Source: Lacrimispora xylanolytica (GTDB lineage: Bacteria > Bacillota > Clostridia > Lachnospirales > Lachnospiraceae). Taken from it: a DNA stretch of 64,000 nt. How positions within the stretch are numbered: position 1 is the stretch's first letter; each line of letters begins with the position of its first letter. The notes beneath the pieces were generated by a model, which saw only the letters and a program-made list of their open reading frames with translations, ran no database searches and was not told the DNA's origin. Location of the stretch: positions 3,705,001 through 3,769,000 of the forward strand of contig NZ_CP113524.1 of assembly GCF_026723765.1 (NCBI RefSeq), written 5' to 3'. The translations under genes were made by a program, and so were the position numbers. Shown piece by piece: positions 13,087 through 64,000 of the stretch.

Positions 13087-13773
13087 ATGTCTGATAAAGT
13101 ATTAATAGTGGATGATGATCCGGCAGTTTATAAGCTGCTGGAAAAAGTCATGCACAGCAATGATCTAGAAACCACTGTTGCAGACAGCGGCCTCGCTGCT
13201 TTAAATTTGTTAAAAAACCATTCCTACGATATCATTCTTATGGATGTTATGCTGGGGGACATGGAAGGCTTTGAGGTCATAAAGAGAATTCGCAGCCAGG
13301 GCGACCAGACCCCTGTTATGATCGTAAGCGGGAGAAACGAAGATTACGACTCCCTCTATGGACTTTCACTGGGTGCTGACGATTATATTACAAAGCCATT
13401 TCGCCCATTGGTTCTTGGTGCTAAGGTTAAGGCATTGATACGCCGTAACAAAAACCAGATTTTAGACAGCTCAGAGCTGATTGAATGCGGCCCCTTCTCT
13501 TACAACACTTCCACCATGCGATTTTATAAAAATGGCGAAGAAATTGTACTTTCCTCCAAGGAAAGCAGTTTGATGCTTTTATTTATCAAACGTCCCAATC
13601 AGGTTTTTACCAAGGATATGATTTACGAGCATGTATGGGGAAACAGCATTGCCATAGACGATAACGCCATTATGGTATATATCAACCGTCTGCGCAGTAA
13701 AATCGAAAAAGACCGGCAAAAGCCGGCCCATATCGTAACAGTCAGAGGTCTAGGATACCGGTTTATCCCATAG
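13087..13773 (+). CDS. OmpR/PhoB-family response regulator
   Basis: A 228-residue regulator: receiver at 1-115 with DDD acidic cluster, phospho-acceptor Asp in IILMDVMLGDMEG, and Lys in DDYITKPF; a winged-helix DNA-binding domain at 130-228 with KESSLMLLFIKRPNQVFTKD and VYINRLRSKIEKD. The ATG at 13087 follows GGGGGA by four bases; an earlier TTG at 13075 overlaps that site and is unlikely. It is divergent from the Cache kinase and convergent with citG, overlapping it by 11 bases. It is the best candidate for binding the tandem elements before citM and citD. Confidence 0.9.
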   Translation: MSDKVLIVDDDPAVYKLLEKVMHSNDLETTVADSGLAALNLLKNHSYDIILMDVMLGDMEGFEVIKRIRSQGDQTPVMIVSGRNEDYDSLYGLSLGADDYITKPFRPLVLGAKVKALIRRNKNQILDSSELIECGPFSYNTSTMRFYKNGEEIVLSSKESSLMLLFIKRPNQVFTKDMIYEHVWGNSIAIDDNAIMVYINRLRSKIEKDRQKPAHIVTVRGLGYRFIP

Positions 13774-14704
13774 GCCTCTGGCCTTTTTTTATGTCAAACT
13801 CGTTAACTTCCGAGAATTCCTTTGATCCGTCCCACAACAGATCTGCCAGAAATATGGTGACAGCCAGAAGATCCGCACAGCCTCCTGCACTGATATTTCT
13901 ATCTATAAAATCCTTATCCATACGTTTCAGGATAGATACAGCCTCTTCCTGATATGCCCCTCCAGAAGAAAGAAATTCCTTTGCCAATCCCTTGACCTCA
14001 TGTAATGCCTCCAGGTTATGCCTGGCGATGATATTAGAATCATCCACCTGACTCATCAGAGCAAACAAGGTCTGTAGCTTAACAAGATTAAAATCTCTGC
14101 CTTCCGAAATTCCCTTTGCCATTACAGGCAGGGAAATGGTCCGTATGGACTGGTAGCCGCTTATGGCTTCTCCTCTGGCACCCATGGTGCCGTATTTTTG
14201 CAGATTTTTCTCTCCATTGCTGGTGAAGTCACGCATCCCATGAACTTCTTTTAATAAGGTATCCCGTACCATAGCCTGCTCCATTTCCATCAGAGAGTAT
14301 AGGGTTACGGTATCATCCCTCTCAATGCAAGCCCCCACAGCCGCACTGAGTATTCCCATATTAAAAATAAGCCCTTTGTGAGTATTCACTCCAGCAGTTG
14401 CATGGTACATAGCCTTTTCTGCATCAATGCCCAACCTTCTAATATTAGAAAATATCTCGAAAGGACTGTCCTTATGCTTTATGCCTTCCTGTGCCATGGC
14501 TGCAAAATACGGCTTAAGAGCGTCCGCACTCCGCTCAAAGGTGGATACATCCATATCCTTATGAGCGCCATTGGAGTATAAATCCACCAGACCCGGCTTG
14601 GGGGAGGTATATACCTCCTCCAATAGAGCCCGGTATGCCATATCTCCGATTCTTTCGGCAATTTTATCGTTTTTATCCATATCTGTCTCGGAGAAGAGCT
14701 GCAT
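13763..14704 (-). CDS. citG: Triphosphoribosyl-dephospho-CoA synthase
   Basis: CitG makes 2'-(5''-triphosphoribosyl)-3'-dephospho-CoA from ATP and dephospho-CoA, the precursor of the citrate lyase prosthetic group. The 313-residue protein shows the family motifs SPKPGLVDLYSNGAHKDM and HKGLIFNMGILSAAVG (GxNTHKG box at 145-160). The start at 14704, four bases past the citF stop with AGAGG eight bases upstream, is preferred over an in-frame extension into citF. It is the last gene of citDEFG and is encoded apart from citX rather than fused to it. Its 3' end overlaps the convergent regulator. Confidence 0.88.
   Translation of the reverse strand: MQLFSETDMDKNDKIAERIGDMAYRALLEEVYTSPKPGLVDLYSNGAHKDMDVSTFERSADALKPYFAAMAQEGIKHKDSPFEIFSNIRRLGIDAEKAMYHATAGVNTHKGLIFNMGILSAAVGACIERDDTVTLYSLMEMEQAMVRDTLLKEVHGMRDFTSNGEKNLQKYGTMGARGEAISGYQSIRTISLPVMAKGISEGRDFNLVKLQTLFALMSQVDDSNIIARHNLEALHEVKGLAKEFLSSGGAYQEEAVSILKRMDKDFIDRNISAGGCADLLAVTIFLADLLWDGSKEFSEVNEFDIKKGQRPMG
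13772..13790 (+). terminator. Short terminator of the OmpR-type regulator gene
   Basis: AGGCC-TCT-GGCCT followed by seven T, starting inside the stop codon. The five-bp GC-rich stem is small but the T-run is clear. It lies inside the citG 3' end. Confidence 0.5.
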
Positions 14705-54559: not shown

Positions 54560-56064
54560 GAGACCGTTTCAAAGTCCGTGTAAACTCCAAAAACTGATAT
54601 AAAATATTGATTGTTATTTATGGGCAAGGCCATTTTTCATTGGTTCTTGCCCATGCTTGTATTATAAAACTGTTTTTGGGGTTGTCAAGTAAAACTCCCC
54701 TTTGGCAGTCTTAATACCTTGCTCTTTAATTTTTAAGATAACCTTTCTTCAAAGAAAATCTCCAACTGGGAATGGATCTGACCCCAATCCTGACGGTGGC
54801 CCGTCCATTTTTTGGTGATATCCATAGTTGCCAGGTATAGCATTTTTAGCAGGCTGTCATCTGTGGGAAATATCGTCTTACTTTTCGTGACCTTTCGGAG
54901 CTGCCGGTAAAAGCCCTCTATGGCATTTGTGGTGTAAATAATTCTACGTACAGCCTCAGGATATTTAAAATACGTGGATAGATTAGCCCAGTTATCCCGC
55001 CAGGACTTTGTTATTTTAGGGTATTTCCCGCCCCATTTGTCATCAAATAGATCTAGTTCACTTAGTGCGATATCTTCTGTAGGTGCAGCATACACACGTT
55101 TTAAATCTACCATAAGTGGCTTGATATCTTTGTAGGATACAAACTTCGTTGTGTTACGGATTTGATGAATAATGCACTGCTGAATTTCAGTTTTTGGAAA
55201 AACCTCCTCAATTGCCTGGGGAAAACCGGTCAGGCCATCCACACATGCAATCAGGATATCTCGGACTCCACGGTTTTTTAAACCGTTCATAATTGACAGC
55301 CAGAACTTCGCACTTTCGTTCTCGCCGACATACATTCCAAGAACATCTTTATGTCCACTCATATCTATGCCAATGGCGATATAGACAGCTTTTTTTTACG
55401 ATTCGGCCTTCGCTTCTGACATGAAAATGGATGGCATCCATGAATACTACGGCATAAATATCTTCCAGTGGGCGTTCTTGCCAGGGTCTGCCCCCTTGGG
55501 CACTCTTTTACAATAGGGAGTATTTTATCTGTAATGCGACTTATTGTACTGTCCGAGATATCTACTCCATAGAGATCCTGCATATGACTTTCAATATCTC
55601 CGGTGGTCATCCCTTTGGCATACATGGAGATGATTTTTTCTTCCATGTCCTGAGACAAGGTGTTTTGATACTTCTTGATAATCTTAGGTTCAATCCCCAT
55701 TTCGATCACGAGGAACGTCCAGCTCCATATCTCCATAGCTAGTATGTAATGTTTTTGAATTATAACCATTTCTGCTGTTATCTGTTTCTTTGTTGCGGAA
55801 GTCGTACTTGGTGTAACCCAGTTCCTCCTCCATTTCGCCATCCAGACTACCTTCCAGGATGACAGACATCATTTCTCTCATGAGACCATTGACATCTGTT
55901 CCATTCTTAACTGGATTTTCTTTCAGATATCCATTCATCATTTCACGTAGTGCCTGTCTTTCGGGAGACTCGTCCCTTCTTCTTTTTGCCATAAAATAAA
56001 ACCTCCAAACTGAGTAATTTTATTTTACATCAGTTTGAAGGTTTACACAAACTTTGGGATTCTC
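54560..56064 (-). mobile_element. IS256-family insertion sequence, about 1.5 kb, inactive
   Basis: Ends GAGA...CAAAGTCCGTGTAAAC (54560 onwards) and, reversed from 56064, GAGAATCCCAAAGTTTGTGT form imperfect inverted repeats. Eight-base flanks (GTCTGGGG and GGGCAACT) do not match, so no target duplication is seen. The transposase inside is broken. Confidence 0.8.
54733..55992 (-). pseudogene. IS256-family (mutator-type) transposase, frameshifted
   Basis: The gene would give about 415 residues but is split over three frames. Part 1 (MAKRRRDESPERQALREMMNG to LDVPRDRNG), part 2 (EPKIIKKYQNTLSQDMEEKI to DKILPIVKE), a short out-of-frame segment (ERPLEDIYAVVFMDAIHFHV), and part 3 (MSGHKDVLGMYVGENESAKF to the end, with CVDGLTGFPQAI and TTNAIEGFYRQLRKVTK). 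Shifts lie near 55695, 55490 and at a run of eight A near 55390. DDE residues are spread over the parts. Confidence 0.88.
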
Positions 56065-56174: not shown

Positions 56175-56447
56175 TTATCCTAGATTTTCTTTTATCTGCC
56201 TAACCTTATCCATAATTTCTTTTTCACTGAAGTACATATTAGGGATTTTTAGTTCATCATCATCGTCAGAAAATCTTCCTGTCATTTCACACAATTCTCC
56301 AAACAAACGATTTTCCTCATTACTCAACTCATCATAGTTTACCTCTAAATCATAAATACGTGTAAATTCATCGCAAAATGTTTTAACGATATATGAACCC
56401 TTTACTAACCCATTTATTAAATACCAAAGACTTTCTTTTTCTGTCAT
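56175..56447 (-). CDS. Probable immunity protein for the Rhs toxin
   Basis: A 90-residue acidic, helical protein (MTEKESLWYLINGLVKGS, RFSDDDDELKIPNMYFSEKEIM) encoded 12 bases after the Rhs gene on the same strand. Small acidic proteins directly behind polymorphic toxins are normally their specific immunity partners. The gene is AT-rich compared with the Rhs body, as is the toxin tip. I do not recognise its family. Confidence 0.7.
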   Translation of the reverse strand: MTEKESLWYLINGLVKGSYIVKTFCDEFTRIYDLEVNYDELSNEENRLFGELCEMTGRFSDDDDELKIPNMYFSEKEIMDKVRQIKENLG

Positions 56448-56459
56448 CTTTATACACCC

Positions 56460-59400
56460 CTATTTTTTTATTTCTGGTAATTTTCCCATAGCCTTTCTTG
56501 CATATTCAAAGTGATAAACTTGATTAGTCGTTGAATCATACAGAACTTCTAAATTGTACAATTTACCATTTTTAGTGATTGTAGTATAGTACATTGTTGC
56601 ACTTGAGCCTCTTGGATCAGGAAATGCTTCTCCTTTTCGTATAGCGTCTTGTAGTGTTTGAATAGGTATTTGCCTCCCGCTTTCTCCCATATGTTCCAAT
56701 GCTTTTTTAGAGAAATTCAGTCCATCATCTAAATTAGAATATTGCCCCGCCCCCTTAGCAATTTTCATTTGTTGCGCTTGCAGTAATTGCCTGGTCTGCG
56801 TGAAACCTGTAGCACCAGCAGGAGCCACGGTTGCTACACCACCCCCAAGTCCTGATGCAACTGCACCAGTTGATGCCAGCGCACTACCAGTAGCTCCATA
56901 TGCAAGTGCCCCACCACCAGCTAGACCAGCTGTAGAGCCTACAGCAGCGCCTTTCAGAACTGCATTTAATGAAAATTCACCTTTCAGAGCTGAAATTACT
57001 CCATTTGAAAATCCTCCAGCTACTAAACCACCTACAACAGCGAGAACCAAAAATGGAACATGACCGGTAGGATCAGTATATAAAACAGGATTATTATGAC
57101 AATAAGTATACTTATTCAAACTTAGAGGATCTGTAATTTCCAGTTCGTTAGGCATTTTCCGGGTTGTCTTTTCTACGCTGTCCTCAGTAAGAAAACGACC
57201 GGTTTCAGATCTGTAACTTCTTGCTCGCAAATAGTAGGTTTTTGTATCTATGTCTAAATACTCCCCACAATAACGGAACGGATTCTCCTCCTCTTTATCT
57301 GGAGTTTTCTCAATTCCAAAAGCATCATACTCATACGAACCTTTACAAATTCCGCTTTGACTCCACAGTTGGGTTACATCCCCATGTTCATTAAATATAT
57401 AATAGTATACCACATTATCTTTTTCACAGGCAATCAGATTGATTCCTCTTAAATAGGTTTTAATCTGTTGGTTTTCAATCTGTTCCGCTACAATATTCGT
57501 TCCATCCCAGCAATACAAATTCGTTTTACTCTGGTTCTCAGTGAGTTTCCTAACTTCAGTGCTATGGCGCAGGCCATCTCCCCGGTACTGGTACGAAATT
57601 TCTTTCTCATCCTGATTTATTCTGGTTAGTTGGTTGAATCCATCATATTGTCTCCACTCATAAACTGACGGAGTCTCCCTTTGATAGGTCCCTGATAACC
57701 TGACATTTCCCGGATAATTCGGTGTTGGCGCTGTTTTTTCCCATATGCGGAAGACTTCATTCCCATTATCATCATAACGGTACTGATAAGTTTCGGTTAT
57801 TTTTCCCTGCTTTTTTATTTCCTTTACAAGCCTATTATTCAAACCATACTCATAACTGGTGACACTGACGAGCTCATCCTTTGTTCTTCCCTCCACCATT
57901 ACTTTCATACGGTTGGAGTAGGCATCATAGGTATAAAGAGTCCGCTTCCAGTCGGAATAATCTTCTTCTGTCAGACGACCTAGCCGATCATATTGATACG
58001 ATATGATTGTTGGGGTAGAACCAGCTTTATTAATCTTGCTTAGAATGTTCCCTGACACATCATAGGTGTATTCCCAAGAAGAAATTACGGTTCCCTGCCG
58101 TTTATTCTCCAATGATATTATCCTGTTTCCATCATTATATTTATAAATGGTTTCCATACCGGACTGGGGATAGCGGAGGGCTTTACGATTGCCTTTTTCA
58201 TCGTATTCGTACTCTGCCAGTATAGTCCCTGTTGCATTGTCTTTTCTTACCTGCTTTAAACGGGATAAGTCATCATATATGTAATACAGACTGACCTCCG
58301 GATTTGTTTTTCCTTTACAAACCAACTGAAAGGATTGACGGTTTCCATACATGTCATAAGTATAATCTTTTTCTGCATTTCCCGGATCTTCCTGTCGAGT
58401 GAGCTGGCCTTTATTATTGTAGTAATACTTCGTCTCCAGGAGGACGGTTTGTTTTCCTCCCCCTGACTCCCGACTGACTTCACTAATCCGCTTTCCGTTC
58501 TTACCATAGGCATACTCCCGCTCGCTTACTGTCATTCCATCAGGAGTTTTCTTTTGCACGTTTTCTCTTATCAGGCGTTCCAGAGCATCATGTTGATAAA
58601 CGGTGTGGTCCTTATTTCTGTCTATTTTTTTCTGCAGCCTTCCAGCTTTGTCATACTCATGGTATTCCGTATAGCCGCAGGAATCCGTCATTGCCGTGAC
58701 ATTTCCAAAGCGGTCATAGGCGTATGTTGTCACCTCACGCCCTTCACCTGATGGGGTATCTCCGGCTCTCCTCAAAATGACCTGATTCATTGCATCATAT
58801 CGGCAGGTGGTCCTAATCCAGTTGTTCGGACTAAGGAATTGATAGGTATCGGTTAAACGGTTCCTGGCATCATAAACGTACTGATTCTCCTGCCAGCCAT
58901 CTTTTTGAGCTTTCTTTTCCCATATTACATTCCCGTTTCCATCATAGTAATATTTTACAATGCTGCTACGCTGGTCAAACGGCGTGGTGATTTGAACCAA
59001 ACGTCCTGCCTTATCGTATTGAAATTCGGTTTTCTTTCCAGCCTCATCCCATTGGAATCGTTTATTGCCTAACGCATCATATTGAATGCTAGTAATTCGC
59101 TCCTGGCCGGAGTCAGTCCGTATGTGTTTTACTGGTCGGCCGGCATAATCGTACCCCCAACGTTCCGCTTTGTTCCCGGCATCAATTTTGAGGATATTGT
59201 TTCCTGCATTGTCATATTCGTAGGTAAATATTCTGTCTCCGGCTAAAGTTTCCTTCCGGATCCGATTTTTCTGGTCTTTATAACATACCGTCACCAGATC
59301 CGGAGCGGAGGCATCTCCTATGATTTTTTTCAGTTCACGATAGTACTTTCTGCCATCTGATAAATCGGTAAATACCTCATTGTATTCATACCTCTCCTCA

Positions 59401-61814
59401 TAACCGACTTGTGGAATCGTTCGGGATAGCACCCGGCCAAATGAATCGTAGGTATAACGCTCGGTCTTTCTTACTTGGTCTGCTGCTGTGCCGTTCCCAT
59501 TATATGTAACTACTTCTGTCAGCTCGCCCCATGAATTATATCGGAAATCCTGCAGCACGACATCCCCGGAGGCCGGCTCATTGGATACGGCCAGGCAGAC
59601 CTGTTGAATCTGTCCTAGCGGTGTGTATTGAATTCGTCTTTTATTGTGGTTCGCATCTGTTTCCGTGATATAGTTTAAGCGGTCATTATAATAAGTTTCA
59701 TTTACTGCCTGCTGACCATCAACTGGGGGCAGCGTTTCTGCTTCCACTCGTCCAAGCCTGTCATATCGGATGGTACTGACCTGATTCCTCGAATCTTTTT
59801 TGGAAATGAGACGTCCCCAATTGTCATATTGAAATTCTTCCTTTATTGAATCACAAGGTCTTCCGTCTGCATCTATAATACCGGTTTGTTCTTTTGATAT
59901 AAAGTTATGTGTGTATCTGCTGTCTGTACTGAAAGGAGTACTGTATTTATAAATTGTTTCCGCATAATCACCTGACTGTTCCAGATTCCCACCGTCTGTC
60001 AGAAAATACCTTCTTTCGTTGGTCACACAATAGGGGTTTGGGGGATCTTTATAATCATATCCCATTTTTTCTTTTAAGACTCCATTTTCATATAGACGAT
60101 GATACTTTATTACTCGATTTCCCAATTCCGCATAGAGTTCGTTTGTTTCTTTGATCTGGTCAGAGCCATTTTTTCTTCCCGTTTCAAGAACGATGCTGTA
60201 GTCTCCATAGGTCGTATTTATTTCCTGGTTGCAAAAAGGGTCATCCGGATATTCTTCTATGAGCTGTATAATATTTGCTTTTTGATCTGCGGAATATTTC
60301 CATAAGGTTTTCTTTTCCAGAAACTTTGATTCATTGTTCCTGTCAAATACCTGGTCAACTGCTGATACTACTAGTTTATTACTATATTTATAAGTGCTTT
60401 TTGAAATAAGGGAGTTATGATGTCGAACTTCCTTTTTTAATAACAGACCCTCGTTATCAAATCGATGAGTTTCTATAATATCCTGATGAGTTTTTACTTC
60501 CGCATATTCAATATACTCGCCACTGTTGGCAGATCCAGAATCAAGCGTGTACTTATATTCTCCCCGGTTATATTCAGTCCCGTCAACAATATCCCTTTTC
60601 ATTGTTAATGCAAAATGGGTAATCTGTCCACCAACATCATTTTCAATGCTAATGTCTCTATCATATATAAACTGTGTGGAAGCATTATTGGGATATGTAA
60701 CATTCTTTAGCAACATATACCTTCTCGTTTGAGTTTTTGTGTTGTTTCCCGCTACACTCGGGGAAGCACACTTCATGGAACCTTTATGTTCATCTAAATT
60801 ATAGTAGCTGTACTGGGTCATACGTCCTACAGGGTCAGTAACTGCGATGAGTTTATAAGCGTTGCGCCTTTCAATATCATAGGAAATTTCACATGCTTTT
60901 CCAGCTGCACTTTCTGGTAATTTCCAGATAAGTCCGGAATCGTTTTTCTCCAGATTGATTATACGCCCCCAGGTGTCCACAATTTTCATACCGCCGTATT
61001 TTCTTAGATCATAGAAAATAGTATTACCAAATTTATCCTGACGTGCAACCAGTGAGAAATCAATAGCATTTGATGTATCCCGATCTCCATCGTCTCCACC
61101 AGAACTTTGAAAATAGTCTTTATTTCCATTCTTGTATTCAATAATAATATTATAACGTTTTGTGATATCCATTGCATAGGGATGTCGTAGTGTACCTGAT
61201 CTGGTAACGATACTCACATCTTTTAAGTTATAATTCTCAAATCTGTCTGAGTATCGGCTTATTTCTAAATTTCTTCCATCTTCAAGATGCAGAATATAAT
61301 TATAGCTGCGAGTTCCTACTAAATATGGCAGCCAAGCCCACCTAAGATTCTGCACGGTCTCAATGGAAGGCAGAACAAAAGACCATCCATGCCCGAGTCC
61401 ATATGTCGAGGTATAAAAAAAGTTATCTATTGAACCTGTTAATAACATTGAATTTATAACATATGGAGCCATATCCACTAAATTTGCACAGCCGGAATCG
61501 TAGCGCCTGGCAATGGTTACATCAAAACCATCTCTACCTGGCAAGACAAAATCTGTTGTCTCATATTGGAGATTGCCAGTACTTAACTGAATATTTACCT
61601 TATTTGATTCAAAGTAGGTAAATGGGGATTCCGGATACTGTTTAATGTTAGAAAATCCGTCCTCTTCTGAAGACAGCACCGCCTGGCTCAACTGTGTTTT
61701 CAGGCTTTTTTCTTCCATTTTTTCTTCACCTAATACGTTCTCATCCGTATTTGTATCGGGCTCATCCCATTTATCTATCTCAATGTGATTCTCTAAATTC
61801 TTTTTATCGTCCAT
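56460..61814 (-). CDS. Rhs/YD-repeat polymorphic toxin, 1784 aa
   Basis: A giant YD-repeat protein. An acidic N-terminal 60 residues without signal peptide, a beta-rich part with DFVLPGRDGFDVTIARRYDSG, many YD repeats (YDRLGRVEAETLPP, YDAFGIEKTP), the Rhs core (NPFRYCGEYLDIDTKTYYLRARSYRSETGRFLTED, DPLSLNKYTYCHNNPVLYTDPTG ending near 1584), a Gly/Ala-rich pre-toxin hydrophobic stretch (1587-1670), and a variable tip of about 85 residues. The tip (SKKALEHMGESGRQIPIQ to FEYARKAMGKL) resembles DUF4258/BECR-type RNase toxins. It is expected to be delivered to or released on neighbouring cells, with the next gene giving immunity. Confidence 0.88.
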   Translation of the reverse strand: MDDKKNLENHIEIDKWDEPDTNTDENVLGEEKMEEKSLKTQLSQAVLSSEEDGFSNIKQYPESPFTYFESNKVNIQLSTGNLQYETTDFVLPGRDGFDVTIARRYDSGCANLVDMAPYVINSMLLTGSIDNFFYTSTYGLGHGWSFVLPSIETVQNLRWAWLPYLVGTRSYNYILHLEDGRNLEISRYSDRFENYNLKDVSIVTRSGTLRHPYAMDITKRYNIIIEYKNGNKDYFQSSGGDDGDRDTSNAIDFSLVARQDKFGNTIFYDLRKYGGMKIVDTWGRIINLEKNDSGLIWKLPESAAGKACEISYDIERRNAYKLIAVTDPVGRMTQYSYYNLDEHKGSMKCASPSVAGNNTKTQTRRYMLLKNVTYPNNASTQFIYDRDISIENDVGGQITHFALTMKRDIVDGTEYNRGEYKYTLDSGSANSGEYIEYAEVKTHQDIIETHRFDNEGLLLKKEVRHHNSLISKSTYKYSNKLVVSAVDQVFDRNNESKFLEKKTLWKYSADQKANIIQLIEEYPDDPFCNQEINTTYGDYSIVLETGRKNGSDQIKETNELYAELGNRVIKYHRLYENGVLKEKMGYDYKDPPNPYCVTNERRYFLTDGGNLEQSGDYAETIYKYSTPFSTDSRYTHNFISKEQTGIIDADGRPCDSIKEEFQYDNWGRLISKKDSRNQVSTIRYDRLGRVEAETLPPVDGQQAVNETYYNDRLNYITETDANHNKRRIQYTPLGQIQQVCLAVSNEPASGDVVLQDFRYNSWGELTEVVTYNGNGTAADQVRKTERYTYDSFGRVLSRTIPQVGYEERYEYNEVFTDLSDGRKYYRELKKIIGDASAPDLVTVCYKDQKNRIRKETLAGDRIFTYEYDNAGNNILKIDAGNKAERWGYDYAGRPVKHIRTDSGQERITSIQYDALGNKRFQWDEAGKKTEFQYDKAGRLVQITTPFDQRSSIVKYYYDGNGNVIWEKKAQKDGWQENQYVYDARNRLTDTYQFLSPNNWIRTTCRYDAMNQVILRRAGDTPSGEGREVTTYAYDRFGNVTAMTDSCGYTEYHEYDKAGRLQKKIDRNKDHTVYQHDALERLIRENVQKKTPDGMTVSEREYAYGKNGKRISEVSRESGGGKQTVLLETKYYYNNKGQLTRQEDPGNAEKDYTYDMYGNRQSFQLVCKGKTNPEVSLYYIYDDLSRLKQVRKDNATGTILAEYEYDEKGNRKALRYPQSGMETIYKYNDGNRIISLENKRQGTVISSWEYTYDVSGNILSKINKAGSTPTIISYQYDRLGRLTEEDYSDWKRTLYTYDAYSNRMKVMVEGRTKDELVSVTSYEYGLNNRLVKEIKKQGKITETYQYRYDDNGNEVFRIWEKTAPTPNYPGNVRLSGTYQRETPSVYEWRQYDGFNQLTRINQDEKEISYQYRGDGLRHSTEVRKLTENQSKTNLYCWDGTNIVAEQIENQQIKTYLRGINLIACEKDNVVYYYIFNEHGDVTQLWSQSGICKGSYEYDAFGIEKTPDKEEENPFRYCGEYLDIDTKTYYLRARSYRSETGRFLTEDSVEKTTRKMPNELEITDPLSLNKYTYCHNNPVLYTDPTGHVPFLVLAVVGGLVAGGFSNGVISALKGEFSLNAVLKGAAVGSTAGLAGGGALAYGATGSALASTGAVASGLGGGVATVAPAGATGFTQTRQLLQAQQMKIAKGAGQYSNLDDGLNFSKKALEHMGESGRQIPIQTLQDAIRKGEAFPDPRGSSATMYYTTITKNGKLYNLEVLYDSTTNQVYHFEYARKAMGKLPEIKK

Positions 61815-61831: not shown

Positions 61832-62887
61832 TTAATATAATGATATTAGTGTGTTTCCAGTTCCCTTAGCAATAAATTGGACTATTGCAATGGGACCGCT
61901 AAAGCACTCATTCTTATTTAACTGTCTGGTTGATTGAAACCTTAGGTTTCCTGGAATACTGGAGTATATTTTTATATTTTCTTCCGGATAATTTCCGGGT
62001 TCTTTTATACTTTTTATATCCCCGGCTGAAAAGCTGACTAATTCCAGTAAGTATGGGTCATACCGTAGGTTCATACGGATTTTATCCAGACCGCTGACTT
62101 CCTGAGCTTTCATAAGCACGGTGTAACGTTTACCTAACTTTACCGGGTATTTCATAGTGCTATTACGGTAAAATACTGGAATAACAGATATTTGTGCTGT
62201 CTCCAAATACTCAGACTCATACCCATTAGAATCAAATGCTTTGATCCGATACATTGCGTTAGACGCACCTATTGGAATAAAATCTGTCATTCCCCGGTGC
62301 TCTTTTACCTGATTCCGTGCATCCAGTTCATCAAATGTCAGGTCTTTTTCTTCCCATTCGTTAAATGTCAGCCATCTGGAGTCTATACTATCCCAAGAGA
62401 TGCCAGGAAGCGTTATTTTCTCAAGCTTCTCCCATGAGTGCTCTGATTTTTCCAAGCTGCTCCAGGAATTATGAAGCTTGTCCAGCTCAAGCCAGGTCCA
62501 GCCCTGCTCAATGCCAGGCCGTTCAAGACCTGGGCCTTTAAATATTTCAAAGCTGATATCCCTGCTTTCTAGCTGCTTCCATGTGCATGCTTGTTGCTCA
62601 AGCTGTGACCAGCTTAACTGTTCATATTCCAAGCGTTCCCATTGCTGACCTTTGCCTGTTCTGGTCTCGATTTGATTCCAGTTAAGAGCAGCTTGCTCAT
62701 GACTGCTCCAAGGTTCATCAGAACTGTCATAATTATCCCAAGTGTATCCAGATAGGGCCTGTAAAAAGGTTTCATTAAATGCTCTTTCTACCGTATAACT
62801 CTTATCTTGTTCCATTTCTTCCCAAGAAATTTCTGCTCGTTCTCCTTCGTATAGGAGGGGGATATGCAAACATTCAGGTCTGTTCAT
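61832..62887 (-). CDS. Decapeptide Trp-repeat protein with FN3-like and cohesin-like domains
   Basis: A 351-residue protein, 17 bases before the Rhs gene. Residues 20-190 contain fourteen short units of the form S/T-W/F-x-x-L/I-E/D, with aromatic residues at 22, 50, 60, 70, 83, 93, 103, 113, 132, 142, 152, 165, 175 and 185, mostly spaced exactly 10. Residues 200-237 look like the end of a fibronectin III domain (YRIKAFDSNGYESEY). Residues 245-351 resemble a cohesin-type beta-sandwich (GLDKIRMNLRYDPYLLELVS). No signal peptide is seen. It may be a partner or carrier of the Rhs toxin; I know no described family for the repeats. Confidence 0.7.
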   Translation of the reverse strand: MNRPECLHIPLLYEGERAEISWEEMEQDKSYTVERAFNETFLQALSGYTWDNYDSSDEPWSSHEQAALNWNQIETRTGKGQQWERLEYEQLSWSQLEQQACTWKQLESRDISFEIFKGPGLERPGIEQGWTWLELDKLHNSWSSLEKSEHSWEKLEKITLPGISWDSIDSRWLTFNEWEEKDLTFDELDARNQVKEHRGMTDFIPIGASNAMYRIKAFDSNGYESEYLETAQISVIPVFYRNSTMKYPVKLGKRYTVLMKAQEVSGLDKIRMNLRYDPYLLELVSFSAGDIKSIKEPGNYPEENIKIYSSIPGNLRFQSTRQLNKNECFSGPIAIVQFIAKGTGNTLISLY

Positions 62888-63240
62888 AAATCGTAGGTTC
62901 TCCTTTCTTTTTTATTTGTTATCTTTGTTCATATTTTATAATTGATTGTATTTGTATCTTCTGCTCTGATTCATTGAATCTGCATTTTACTGTGTACTAT
63001 TATTTTTCGTTTTAGAACGATAAGTTTTTTCTGCTGGATGTAGATTTAGTTAATTCCTAGGGGAGTTATCATTTTTTATTTACTGATTCTCATATTATGC
63101 AATTGTAAATACATAAGTGTTGTTAACTGTTTTTTAACTTAAGCAAAAACAATAAAATGACCTTAATTTCATTTATTATTTACACTCTCAAGATTACATG
63201 TGTTACAATAAAGTAAGTATACTTGAAAGGATATGTTAAA
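62888..63240. other. AT-rich intergenic region upstream of Rhs operon
   Basis: 353 bases with no gene. It must hold the divergent promoters: a minus-strand TATAAA near 62935 for the Rhs operon, and a plus-strand start for the small membrane protein. No clear hairpin. Confidence 0.5.
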
Positions 63241-63456
63241 ATGAAAAAACTAATAAGTTATTCAATATTAATAGTAGGAGTATTAGGACTTTTACTGTTT
63301 TTTATAAAAAAATGGTATATACGTACAGCAGTTATTGGAAATTCAGATGGTCCCACTTCAGTTTTCGTAGCTGGAAAGTATAGCGATTTTACACCGGTTT
63401 ATTTCATTATAGGAGTACCCATTTTAATTGTACTTTATATTCTTAGAAAAAAATAA
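63241..63456 (+). CDS. 71-aa membrane protein carrying the OadB DGPTS motif
   Basis: A small protein with two membrane helices: residues 4-20 (ISYSILIVGVLGLLLFF) and 51-68. Between them lies IGNSDGPTSVFVAGK, which matches DGPTSIFVAGK of the full decarboxylase beta subunit at 5270-6388, the Na+/carboxylate site of that family. It has none of the other OadB parts. ATG 63241 has AAAGGA nine bases upstream. Short proteins with this motif are sometimes annotated as decarboxylase subunits, but one cannot pump on two helices. Role unknown. Confidence 0.65.
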   Translation: MKKLISYSILIVGVLGLLLFFIKKWYIRTAVIGNSDGPTSVFVAGKYSDFTPVYFIIGVPILIVLYILRKK

Positions 63457-63598: not shown

Positions 63599-63997
63599 TT
63601 AGATGGTAACTTTTTTACCATTTAAATATAATCCATCAGGTCTAAATTCATATACAACTAAAGTTTCACCTCCTAAATGACCAAAAATTCGAAAAATATT
63701 ATTGTAACAATCTATTACTGTATTATCACCAGTATTTCCACCTAAACCTTTAAAAACTATTTCACTCCCCTCTGGTCCAGACGGGTTCTGCGAATTTAGT
63801 CCAACACTACCATAATTTCCGTAAAAACCTGGAGTTGATTTAATAGTATCTAAATTACTACTTAGCTTATTAATTTTCTCATTAATAACAGTGTTATTAC
63901 TACCAATATCCTGTTTTAGCTTAGTTACCTCATCATCGATAATAACATTATCGTTAACAAAATCTTGTCTTACTGGCTTATCTGAAGCTTCCCACAT
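63599..63997 (-). CDS. Phage tail-fibre-like protein, probably 5'-truncated by window edge
   Basis: At least 132 residues. The N-terminus MWEASDKPVRQDFVNDNVIIDDEV resembles the conserved start of phage and tailocin tail-fibre proteins, followed by a coiled coil (VTKLKQDIGSNNTVINEKINKLSSNLDTIK) and a Gly/Asn-rich beta tip (GNYGSVGLNSQNPSGPEGSE, VYEFRPDGLYLNGKKV). The first Met is three bases from the window edge, so the true start may lie outside. It hints at a prophage or tailocin continuing to the right. Confidence 0.6.
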   Translation of the reverse strand: MWEASDKPVRQDFVNDNVIIDDEVTKLKQDIGSNNTVINEKINKLSSNLDTIKSTPGFYGNYGSVGLNSQNPSGPEGSEIVFKGLGGNTGDNTVIDCYNNIFRIFGHLGGETLVVYEFRPDGLYLNGKKVTI

Positions 63998-64000
63998 ATT

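Follow-up and report, generated by a model that had tools for sequence, protein, structure and literature searches.

In phage Mu, cryo-electron microscopy shows that the trimeric fibre gp49 attaches through its N-terminus to a 'fiber docking loop' that belongs to gp48, and the tail-fibre genes of this phage are invertible (PMC11915804). The unconventional scaffoldins ScaO and ScaP of C. alkalicellulosi carry cohesin, dockerin, and Rhs modules on one chain (PMC6780208). How the Rhs toxins of Gram-positive bacteria choose and enter their target cells is a largely open question. This work concerns a locus of Lacrimispora xylanolytica (contig NZ_CP113524.1, positions 3,705,001 to 3,769,000 of the forward strand) where a protein with repeated aromatic decapeptides, termed here the adaptor, is encoded directly before an Rhs gene. 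The whole stretch of 64,000 nucleotides that was analysed is termed the window.

The adaptor is read here, with a probability of about 0.62, as the constant linking component of an Rhs polymorphic toxin that is aimed by fibres: its array would dock the fibres, and its C-terminus would face the Rhs protein. The sequences themselves establish the module, the identity of the repeat motif, the association of fibre anchor and triplet in phages, and the division into constant and variable parts. The genes of the module in the window are as follows.

63599..64000 (full gene to 64033, outside the window), minus strand: tail-fibre-like gene of 144 amino acids with an anchor at residues 1-45 (MSSTNKTSLGLNMWEASDKPVRQDFVNDNVIID), a short coiled coil, and a variable tip.
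61832..62887, minus strand: adaptor gene of 351 amino acids, with an intact open reading frame (ORF) and a length conserved across the genus.
56460..61814, minus strand: Rhs/YD-repeat protein of 1784 amino acids with RHS_repeat, DUF6531, and Rhs_assc_core.
57016-56460, minus strand: strain-specific C-terminal toxin region, Rhs residues from about 1600, marked by a drop in identity.
56175..56447, minus strand: candidate immunity gene of 90 amino acids, in the position of the immunity-type genes of other strains.

The adaptor is a single intact ORF that runs from 62887 to 61832 and ends 17 nucleotides before the Rhs gene (61814-56460). The plus-strand frame across this region contains stops throughout. 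Every aromatic residue that the first-pass annotation had placed at 50-60-70, 83-93-103-113, 132-142-152, and 165-175-185 is present. Its count of fourteen units is corrected to 13, arranged in four blocks (3, 4, 3, and 3), and its W/F-x-x-L-E unit holds in part: about nine of the 13 units fit W/F-x-x-[L/I]-[E/D] and the remainder do not. The claimed 10-residue period is real. Nine W/F pairs occur at lag 10 within residues 21-200, against a shuffle mean of 2.0, and this period is not due to chance because nine exceeds the maximum found in any of 20,000 shuffles (7 pairs). A three-unit DNA pattern has two matches in the window, both in the adaptor, and none in 100 shuffles. The 15 aligned copies of the adaptor are 350-351 amino acids long, the number of units is unchanged in all of them, and most of the aromatics are invariant. 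Conservation is even along the length (64-79% identity among genus copies). Near-identical adaptor loci are found in Clostridium sp. 12(A) and [Clostridium] aerotolerans.

The identity of the array was sought by scanning viral contigs with a DNA pattern that encodes W-x-x-[L/F]-[D/E] three times at a spacing of 30 nucleotides. Among the matches listed, most of those in frame are the extreme C-termini of proteins of 180-220 amino acids that end like YLTWDELDSYNFTWDELDQLNLTWDELE, and these C-terminal arrays nearly always have three units. All five triplet proteins that were searched against Pfam are Phage_Mu_Gp48 (PF10076), with the triplet located beyond the Pfam domain. A profile of the phage triplets matches the adaptor at residues 49-74, 83-107, and 131-157 and marginally at 164-192, with a total of 27.2 bits compared with 9.2 bits for the best of 2000 shuffles. 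Since an adaptor-based pattern was used to find the phage proteins, agreement in W, L, and E is to some extent a product of the selection; the independent part is therefore the block register, the triplet organisation, and the neighbouring genes. The putative docking blocks are as follows.

62666..62743, minus strand: block 1, residues 49-74 (aromatics 50, 60, 70), Gp48-triplet profile 9.4 bits.
62540..62641, minus strand: block 2, residues 83-116 (aromatics 83, 93, 103, 113), Gp48-triplet profile 22.6 bits on 83-107.
62417..62497, minus strand: block 3, residues 131-157 (aromatics 132, 142, 152), Gp48-triplet profile 15.6 bits.
62321..62398, minus strand: block 4, residues 164-189 (aromatics 165, 175, 185), degenerate, with marginal profile matches and the period of 10 kept.

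The AlphaFold model of one Gp48 (31 sequences, pLDDT, the predicted local distance difference test, of 89) exhibits the triplet as three short helices linked by loops, so that each decapeptide is a short helix and a loop. The closest solved structures to this model are clostridial and other contractile baseplate proteins. As judged by profile, the array of the adaptor is about four copies of the Gp48 C-terminal triplet, of which a phage Gp48 normally has one. The solenoid or binding array suggested earlier thus gives way to this known motif, given the profile match and the helix and loop of the Gp48 model. The Pfam scan (E<=1) found no PF10076 in the adaptor, and scanning the whole adaptor against phage records and viral contigs gave zero relatives. 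At eight other loci (L163, L221, L225, L229, L231, L235, L239, and L240), a 27-nucleotide pattern matches long phage proteins that carry a 9-residue W-x-x-[L/F]-D array, either at their end or within them; this array is probably a different motif.

The anchor of the upstream fibre and the triplet go together in phages. The anchor profile was run against 5070 ORFs from triplet-bearing phage loci and gave seven N-terminal matches, of which L367 (E 4.7e-7) and L348 (E 0.0024) are the best and the others are weak. All seven ORFs start within 24 nucleotides of the point where a triplet-bearing Gp48 gene ends. Some of the contigs are near relatives, and independence is therefore overstated by the hypergeometric value of 1e-13 for this pairing. 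The reverse test used the anchor alone without the W pattern, and all 11 viral loci found in this way have a gene ending in an aromatic triplet directly upstream. Two of the 11 also belong to the loci of the first test, and the 11 include at least one near-identical pair. The N-terminal anchor of the upstream fibre is common to phage fibres that follow gp48. These comparisons suggest that, in phage baseplates, a trimeric tail fibre is most likely held at its N-terminus by the Gp48 triplet, and that the upstream fibre is the likely partner of the adaptor array. One contractile-phage contig (L254, 8591-9076) encodes, between gp48 and a fibre whose anchor is related, a separate protein of 161 amino acids in which two triplets are combined with an Ig/FN3-like end. 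This protein aligns to the adaptor (E 1e-8) and is possibly the ancestor type of its array region. The genome of the window also has two prophage Gp48 genes (L371 at C1:1008031 and L372 at C1:795757) without the aromatic triplet, which are followed by other-looking fibre types.

The module was surveyed in 25 Lacrimispora genomes. The adaptor gene was found in 17 of them and the Rhs N-terminal region in 16, all 16 with the adaptor gene directly before it. The fibre gene was found in 16 genomes, the same genomes as the adaptor and nearly always in one copy per genome, and eight genomes have no fibre, no adaptor, and no Rhs. The mismatches are contig ends: the contig of G301 stops about 0.9 kb upstream of the adaptor, and two contigs of G312 terminate inside it. 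The adaptor and Rhs genes are within a few tens of nucleotides of each other in every complete locus, and the linkage proposed from the 17 nucleotides in the window is thus borne out by the 16 Rhs-carrying genomes. Outside Lacrimispora the module was found in one more genus of the family (G033) and nowhere else. The system had been described as having two parts; a third gene, the variable phage-type fibre upstream, was overlooked because it runs beyond the end of the window. By these comparisons, the conserved module consists of the fibre, the adaptor, the Rhs shell, and a variable immunity gene. The aiming part and the toxin vary, and the adaptor and the fibre anchor are constant. No other tail gene adjoins the module in the loci read. 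A 77-amino-acid membrane ORF with the motif IGNSDGPTSVFVAGK lies between fibre and adaptor on the opposite strand (window 63223-63456, plus strand), and among the other loci checked it is present only in L002 and L003. Transposase-like gene fragments in several frames are located just downstream of the Rhs and immunity pair (window 54733-55992, minus strand).

The tail-fibre-like proteins of the genus are 140-205 amino acids long. Their anchor is constant over the first 30-45 residues (median identity of 93-100% to the window copy over residues 1-30), and the tip differs in every strain. Thirteen fibre tips exhibit no mutual similarity at E<1e-3. Fibre tips searched against Pfam gave zero matches. 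A gene of Enterocloster phages matches the tip of the window fibre with 50% identity. In L133, L135, L137, and L142, the 12-bp core AATAGTGATTTA, which codes for NSDL in the coiled coil of the fibre, has an inverted copy 0.6-2.5 kb away. The tip segments bounded in this way are as follows.

L133, 13033-13653: tip segment with inverted AATAGTGATTTA.
L135, 5311-5964: tip segment with inverted AATAGTGATTTA.
L137, 3865-6391: tip segment with inverted AATAGTGATTTA.
L142, 11938-14367: tip segment with inverted AATAGTGATTTA.

A second in-frame tip ORF reads on the opposite strand from the inverted core in L133, L135, and L142, and in L137 the sequence on either side is short. The tip segments of L133, L137, and L142 contain or adjoin a gene for a tyrosine recombinase (PF00589). 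Eight of the nine core sites in 244 kb of Lacrimispora-type sequence belong to these inverted pairs. Tips are therefore likely to be switched by DNA inversion in some Lacrimispora strains. The fibre locus of the window strain has neither core site nor recombinase. A near-identical direct duplication of a fibre tip, with copies about 1.8 kb apart (L142:11929-12566 and 13745-14381), flanks the recombinase gene of that locus.

The remaining parts of the adaptor are as follows.

62744..62887, minus strand: putative first half of an FN3-like domain, residues 1-48, with a weak profile alignment to FN3 strands B-C of the class A relatives defined below.
62177..62299, minus strand: second half of the FN3-like domain (strands F-G), residues 197-237, with a PHROG match at 198-236 (E 0.00099).
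61835..62161, minus strand: C-terminal cohesin-like domain, residues 243-351, with a weak Pfam Cohesin match and an hhalign match to Rhs-neighbour proteins (E 6e-8).

The array appears to be inserted within one FN3-like domain that is split into two halves. The second half is 45% identical to the FN3 protein L005 over 199-236. The match of the first half is weak (hhalign E 0.025, probability 2%), as is the match of a split-FN3 profile in which the alignment columns flanking the array were joined side by side, and Pfam gave zero matches for residues 1-48 alone and likewise for residues 1-65. The C-terminus reaches E 0.022 and 15.4 bits against Pfam Cohesin (PF00963), below the cut-off of 24.1, and its best sequence match in the PDB is a cohesin region (E 0.11). 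Of the FN3-like and cohesin-like domains that the first-pass annotation had placed after the array, the former is retained as a putative second half, and the cohesin likeness is weak and below threshold. Membership of a cellulosome was rejected, as 15.4 bits compares with a cut-off of 24.1 and no dockerin is found in the Rhs protein.

The C-terminal domain recurs beside Rhs genes across Clostridia. Its profile was searched against 391 Clostridia genomes and matched in 62. Class A was defined as the repeat proteins (RCC1, kelch, FN3, or S8) that have a single copy of the domain, ending at most 20 residues before their C-terminus. Class A genes are followed by an Rhs/YD gene within 4.5 kb in 26 of 33 assessable cases, and three further class A genes are the first of a tandem class A pair before an Rhs gene. 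The corresponding count for proteins with internal or multiple cohesin domains is one of 14; the matches in this comparison were picked by domain similarity, independent of Rhs neighbourhood. Among the other long ORFs of these regions the count is 15 of 55, a crude background value that is inflated since many regions were cut around Rhs loci. By hhalign, adaptor residues 211-349 align to the FN3 and C-terminal domain of class A proteins with E 6e-8. The C-terminal domain of the adaptor is best read as its Rhs-facing end because the domain recurs just before Rhs genes across Clostridia. The class A relatives and their Rhs proteins start with signal-like stretches. Both the anchor and the triplet are absent in 50 clostridial regions (class A and controls) outside the module. 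In the class A loci L083-L121, a secreted gene of 290-360 amino acids is often found between the class A gene and the Rhs or S8-Rhs gene.

The Rhs protein of the window has the expected repeats and core (PF05593, E 4.5e-49; TIGR03696, E 1.1e-18). The median identity of the shell is 57-87% per 100 residues to about residue 1500, and that of the last 84 residues is 10%. The toxin tail of the window has zero matches in Pfam, and a Pfam scan found no dockerin in the Rhs protein. The immunity-type families at the same position differ by strain (DUF5071, Barstar, DUF2019, pentapeptide, DUF5104, and DUF1871). The locus thus exhibits the hallmark of Rhs polymorphic toxins, a strain-specific C-terminus with an immunity gene that differs by strain. 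The N-terminal signal peptide and wall anchor of the WapA type are absent; the protein starts with MDDKKNLENHIEIDKWDEPD, where no hydrophobic stretch was seen by eye.

Physical docking, Rhs binding, targeting, delivery, and killing are the steps that we infer from this arrangement. The adaptor array would dock several copies of the upstream short fibre, perhaps one fibre trimer per triplet, and the cohesin-like C-terminus would face or join the Rhs shell. The assembled Rhs toxin would select its target cell by phage-type tips, which would be exchangeable and in certain strains also invertible. The C-terminal toxin would be set free inside the target, and the downstream immunity protein would protect the producer. 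Release by lysis or another route may apply, since no signal peptides were seen by eye in the three proteins. As a tentative picture, slightly less probable than not, the product would be a tail-less particle: an Rhs cocoon with several phage-type fibres on a multivalent Gp48-derived array, with the tips exchanged or inverted and both target range and toxin modular.

Several observations weigh against this mechanism. The fourth array block is degenerate, the AlphaFold model of the adaptor (three-sequence alignment, pLDDT 35) is unusable, and no solved structure containing the aromatic triplet turned up. The docking loop of Mu gp48 comprises residues 133-155 (PMC11915804) and may be a different segment from the triplet. 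The fibre gene is about 710 nucleotides upstream with the 77-amino-acid opposite-strand ORF in between, so that fibre and adaptor may not be co-transcribed. Inspection by eye found no signal peptide in the fibre, adaptor, or Rhs protein, and no dedicated exporter for the module was found. Seven of the 33 class A genes have no directly following Rhs gene, and some precede S8-protease genes. Class A relatives without array or fibre also adjoin Rhs genes, and the C-terminal domain therefore has a role for which no fibres are needed.

The last observation favours another explanation, by which the adaptor serves the Rhs shell structurally, as a plug, cap, or chaperone. The array would then bind, say, glycans or the cell wall, and the fibre would act as an adhesin of its own. 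The class A relatives with propellers, FN3, or other repeats adjoin Rhs genes with neither array nor fibre anchor. However, the array is confined to loci that have the fibre, and phages too pair the anchor with the triplet; we regard this explanation as unlikely, though it is the strongest of the three weighed here. Less likely still is that fibre and adaptor, as stray genes of a phage tail, equip a prophage or tailocin at another place in the genome, with Rhs as an incidental neighbour. The phage-type anchor and triplet and the two prophage Gp48 genes of the same genome would fit such an origin, but both prophage Gp48 proteins are without the aromatic triplet and their fibres without the module anchor. 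The absence of other tail genes beside the module in the loci read, the gap of a few tens of nucleotides between adaptor and Rhs in every complete locus, and the adaptor C-terminus, which is the Rhs-neighbour domain of distant Clostridia, also argue against it.

That the C-terminal domain is a genuine dockerin-binding cohesin, like those of cellulosomes or of proteins of the ScaO/ScaP type, is improbable and ranks lowest. This reading would account for the weak Pfam Cohesin match and the PDB match to a cohesin region (E 0.11), and ScaO and ScaP of C. alkalicellulosi unite S8 peptidase, cohesin, dockerin, and Rhs (PMC6780208). Nevertheless, the score is under the Pfam cut-off, the Rhs protein has no dockerin, and the class A domains are single and C-terminal, unlike cellulosomal cohesins. 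The fibre-docking adaptor is therefore kept as the preferred reading. The first-pass annotation had held that its adaptor idea would fail if the repeats belonged to a known phage structural family; the repeat does belong to one, and the adaptor is retained with a probable partner supplied. The Rhs linkage and the adaptor idea thus survive, and the unit count, the solenoid, and the two-part layout do not.

If the fibre-docking reading is true, the fibre tip would reveal the target range, which could be tested in laboratory strains, and the aromatic triplet would be a fibre-docking code, useful in annotating Gp48-type baseplates. The comparison also reveals that Rhs-neighbour proteins with a common C-terminal domain form a widespread family in Clostridia. 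No description of a fibre, adaptor, and Rhs module was found in the searchable literature, with most subscription journals outside its reach.

The locus is similar to several known systems and differs from each. It resembles the phage Mu-like Gp48/XkdU baseplate wedge protein (PF10076) in having the aromatic triplet beside a fibre with a matching N-terminal anchor; however, the adaptor has no Gp48 domain and about four triplets instead of one, and the Rhs locus has no tail genes. The YD-repeat shell, the strain-specific C-terminus, and the immunity gene that follows are those of WapA and the Rhs polymorphic toxins of Gram-positive bacteria, whereas the module is without signal peptide and has added fibre and adaptor genes. 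The clostridial class A proteins have the same FN3-like stretch and C-terminal domain directly upstream of Rhs, but they have their own signal-peptide-like N-termini, and RCC1, kelch, FN3, or S8 replace the docking array. Cohesin and Rhs modules also occur together in ScaO and ScaP, which are single polypeptides with dockerins in cellulosome producers. Inversion that would switch tips in some Lacrimispora strains is similar to that of the G segment of phage Mu with its invertible tail-fibre genes. The G segment is inverted by the serine invertase Gin, whereas the Lacrimispora strains concerned have a tyrosine recombinase (PF00589) and a fibre gene with a short internal core site.
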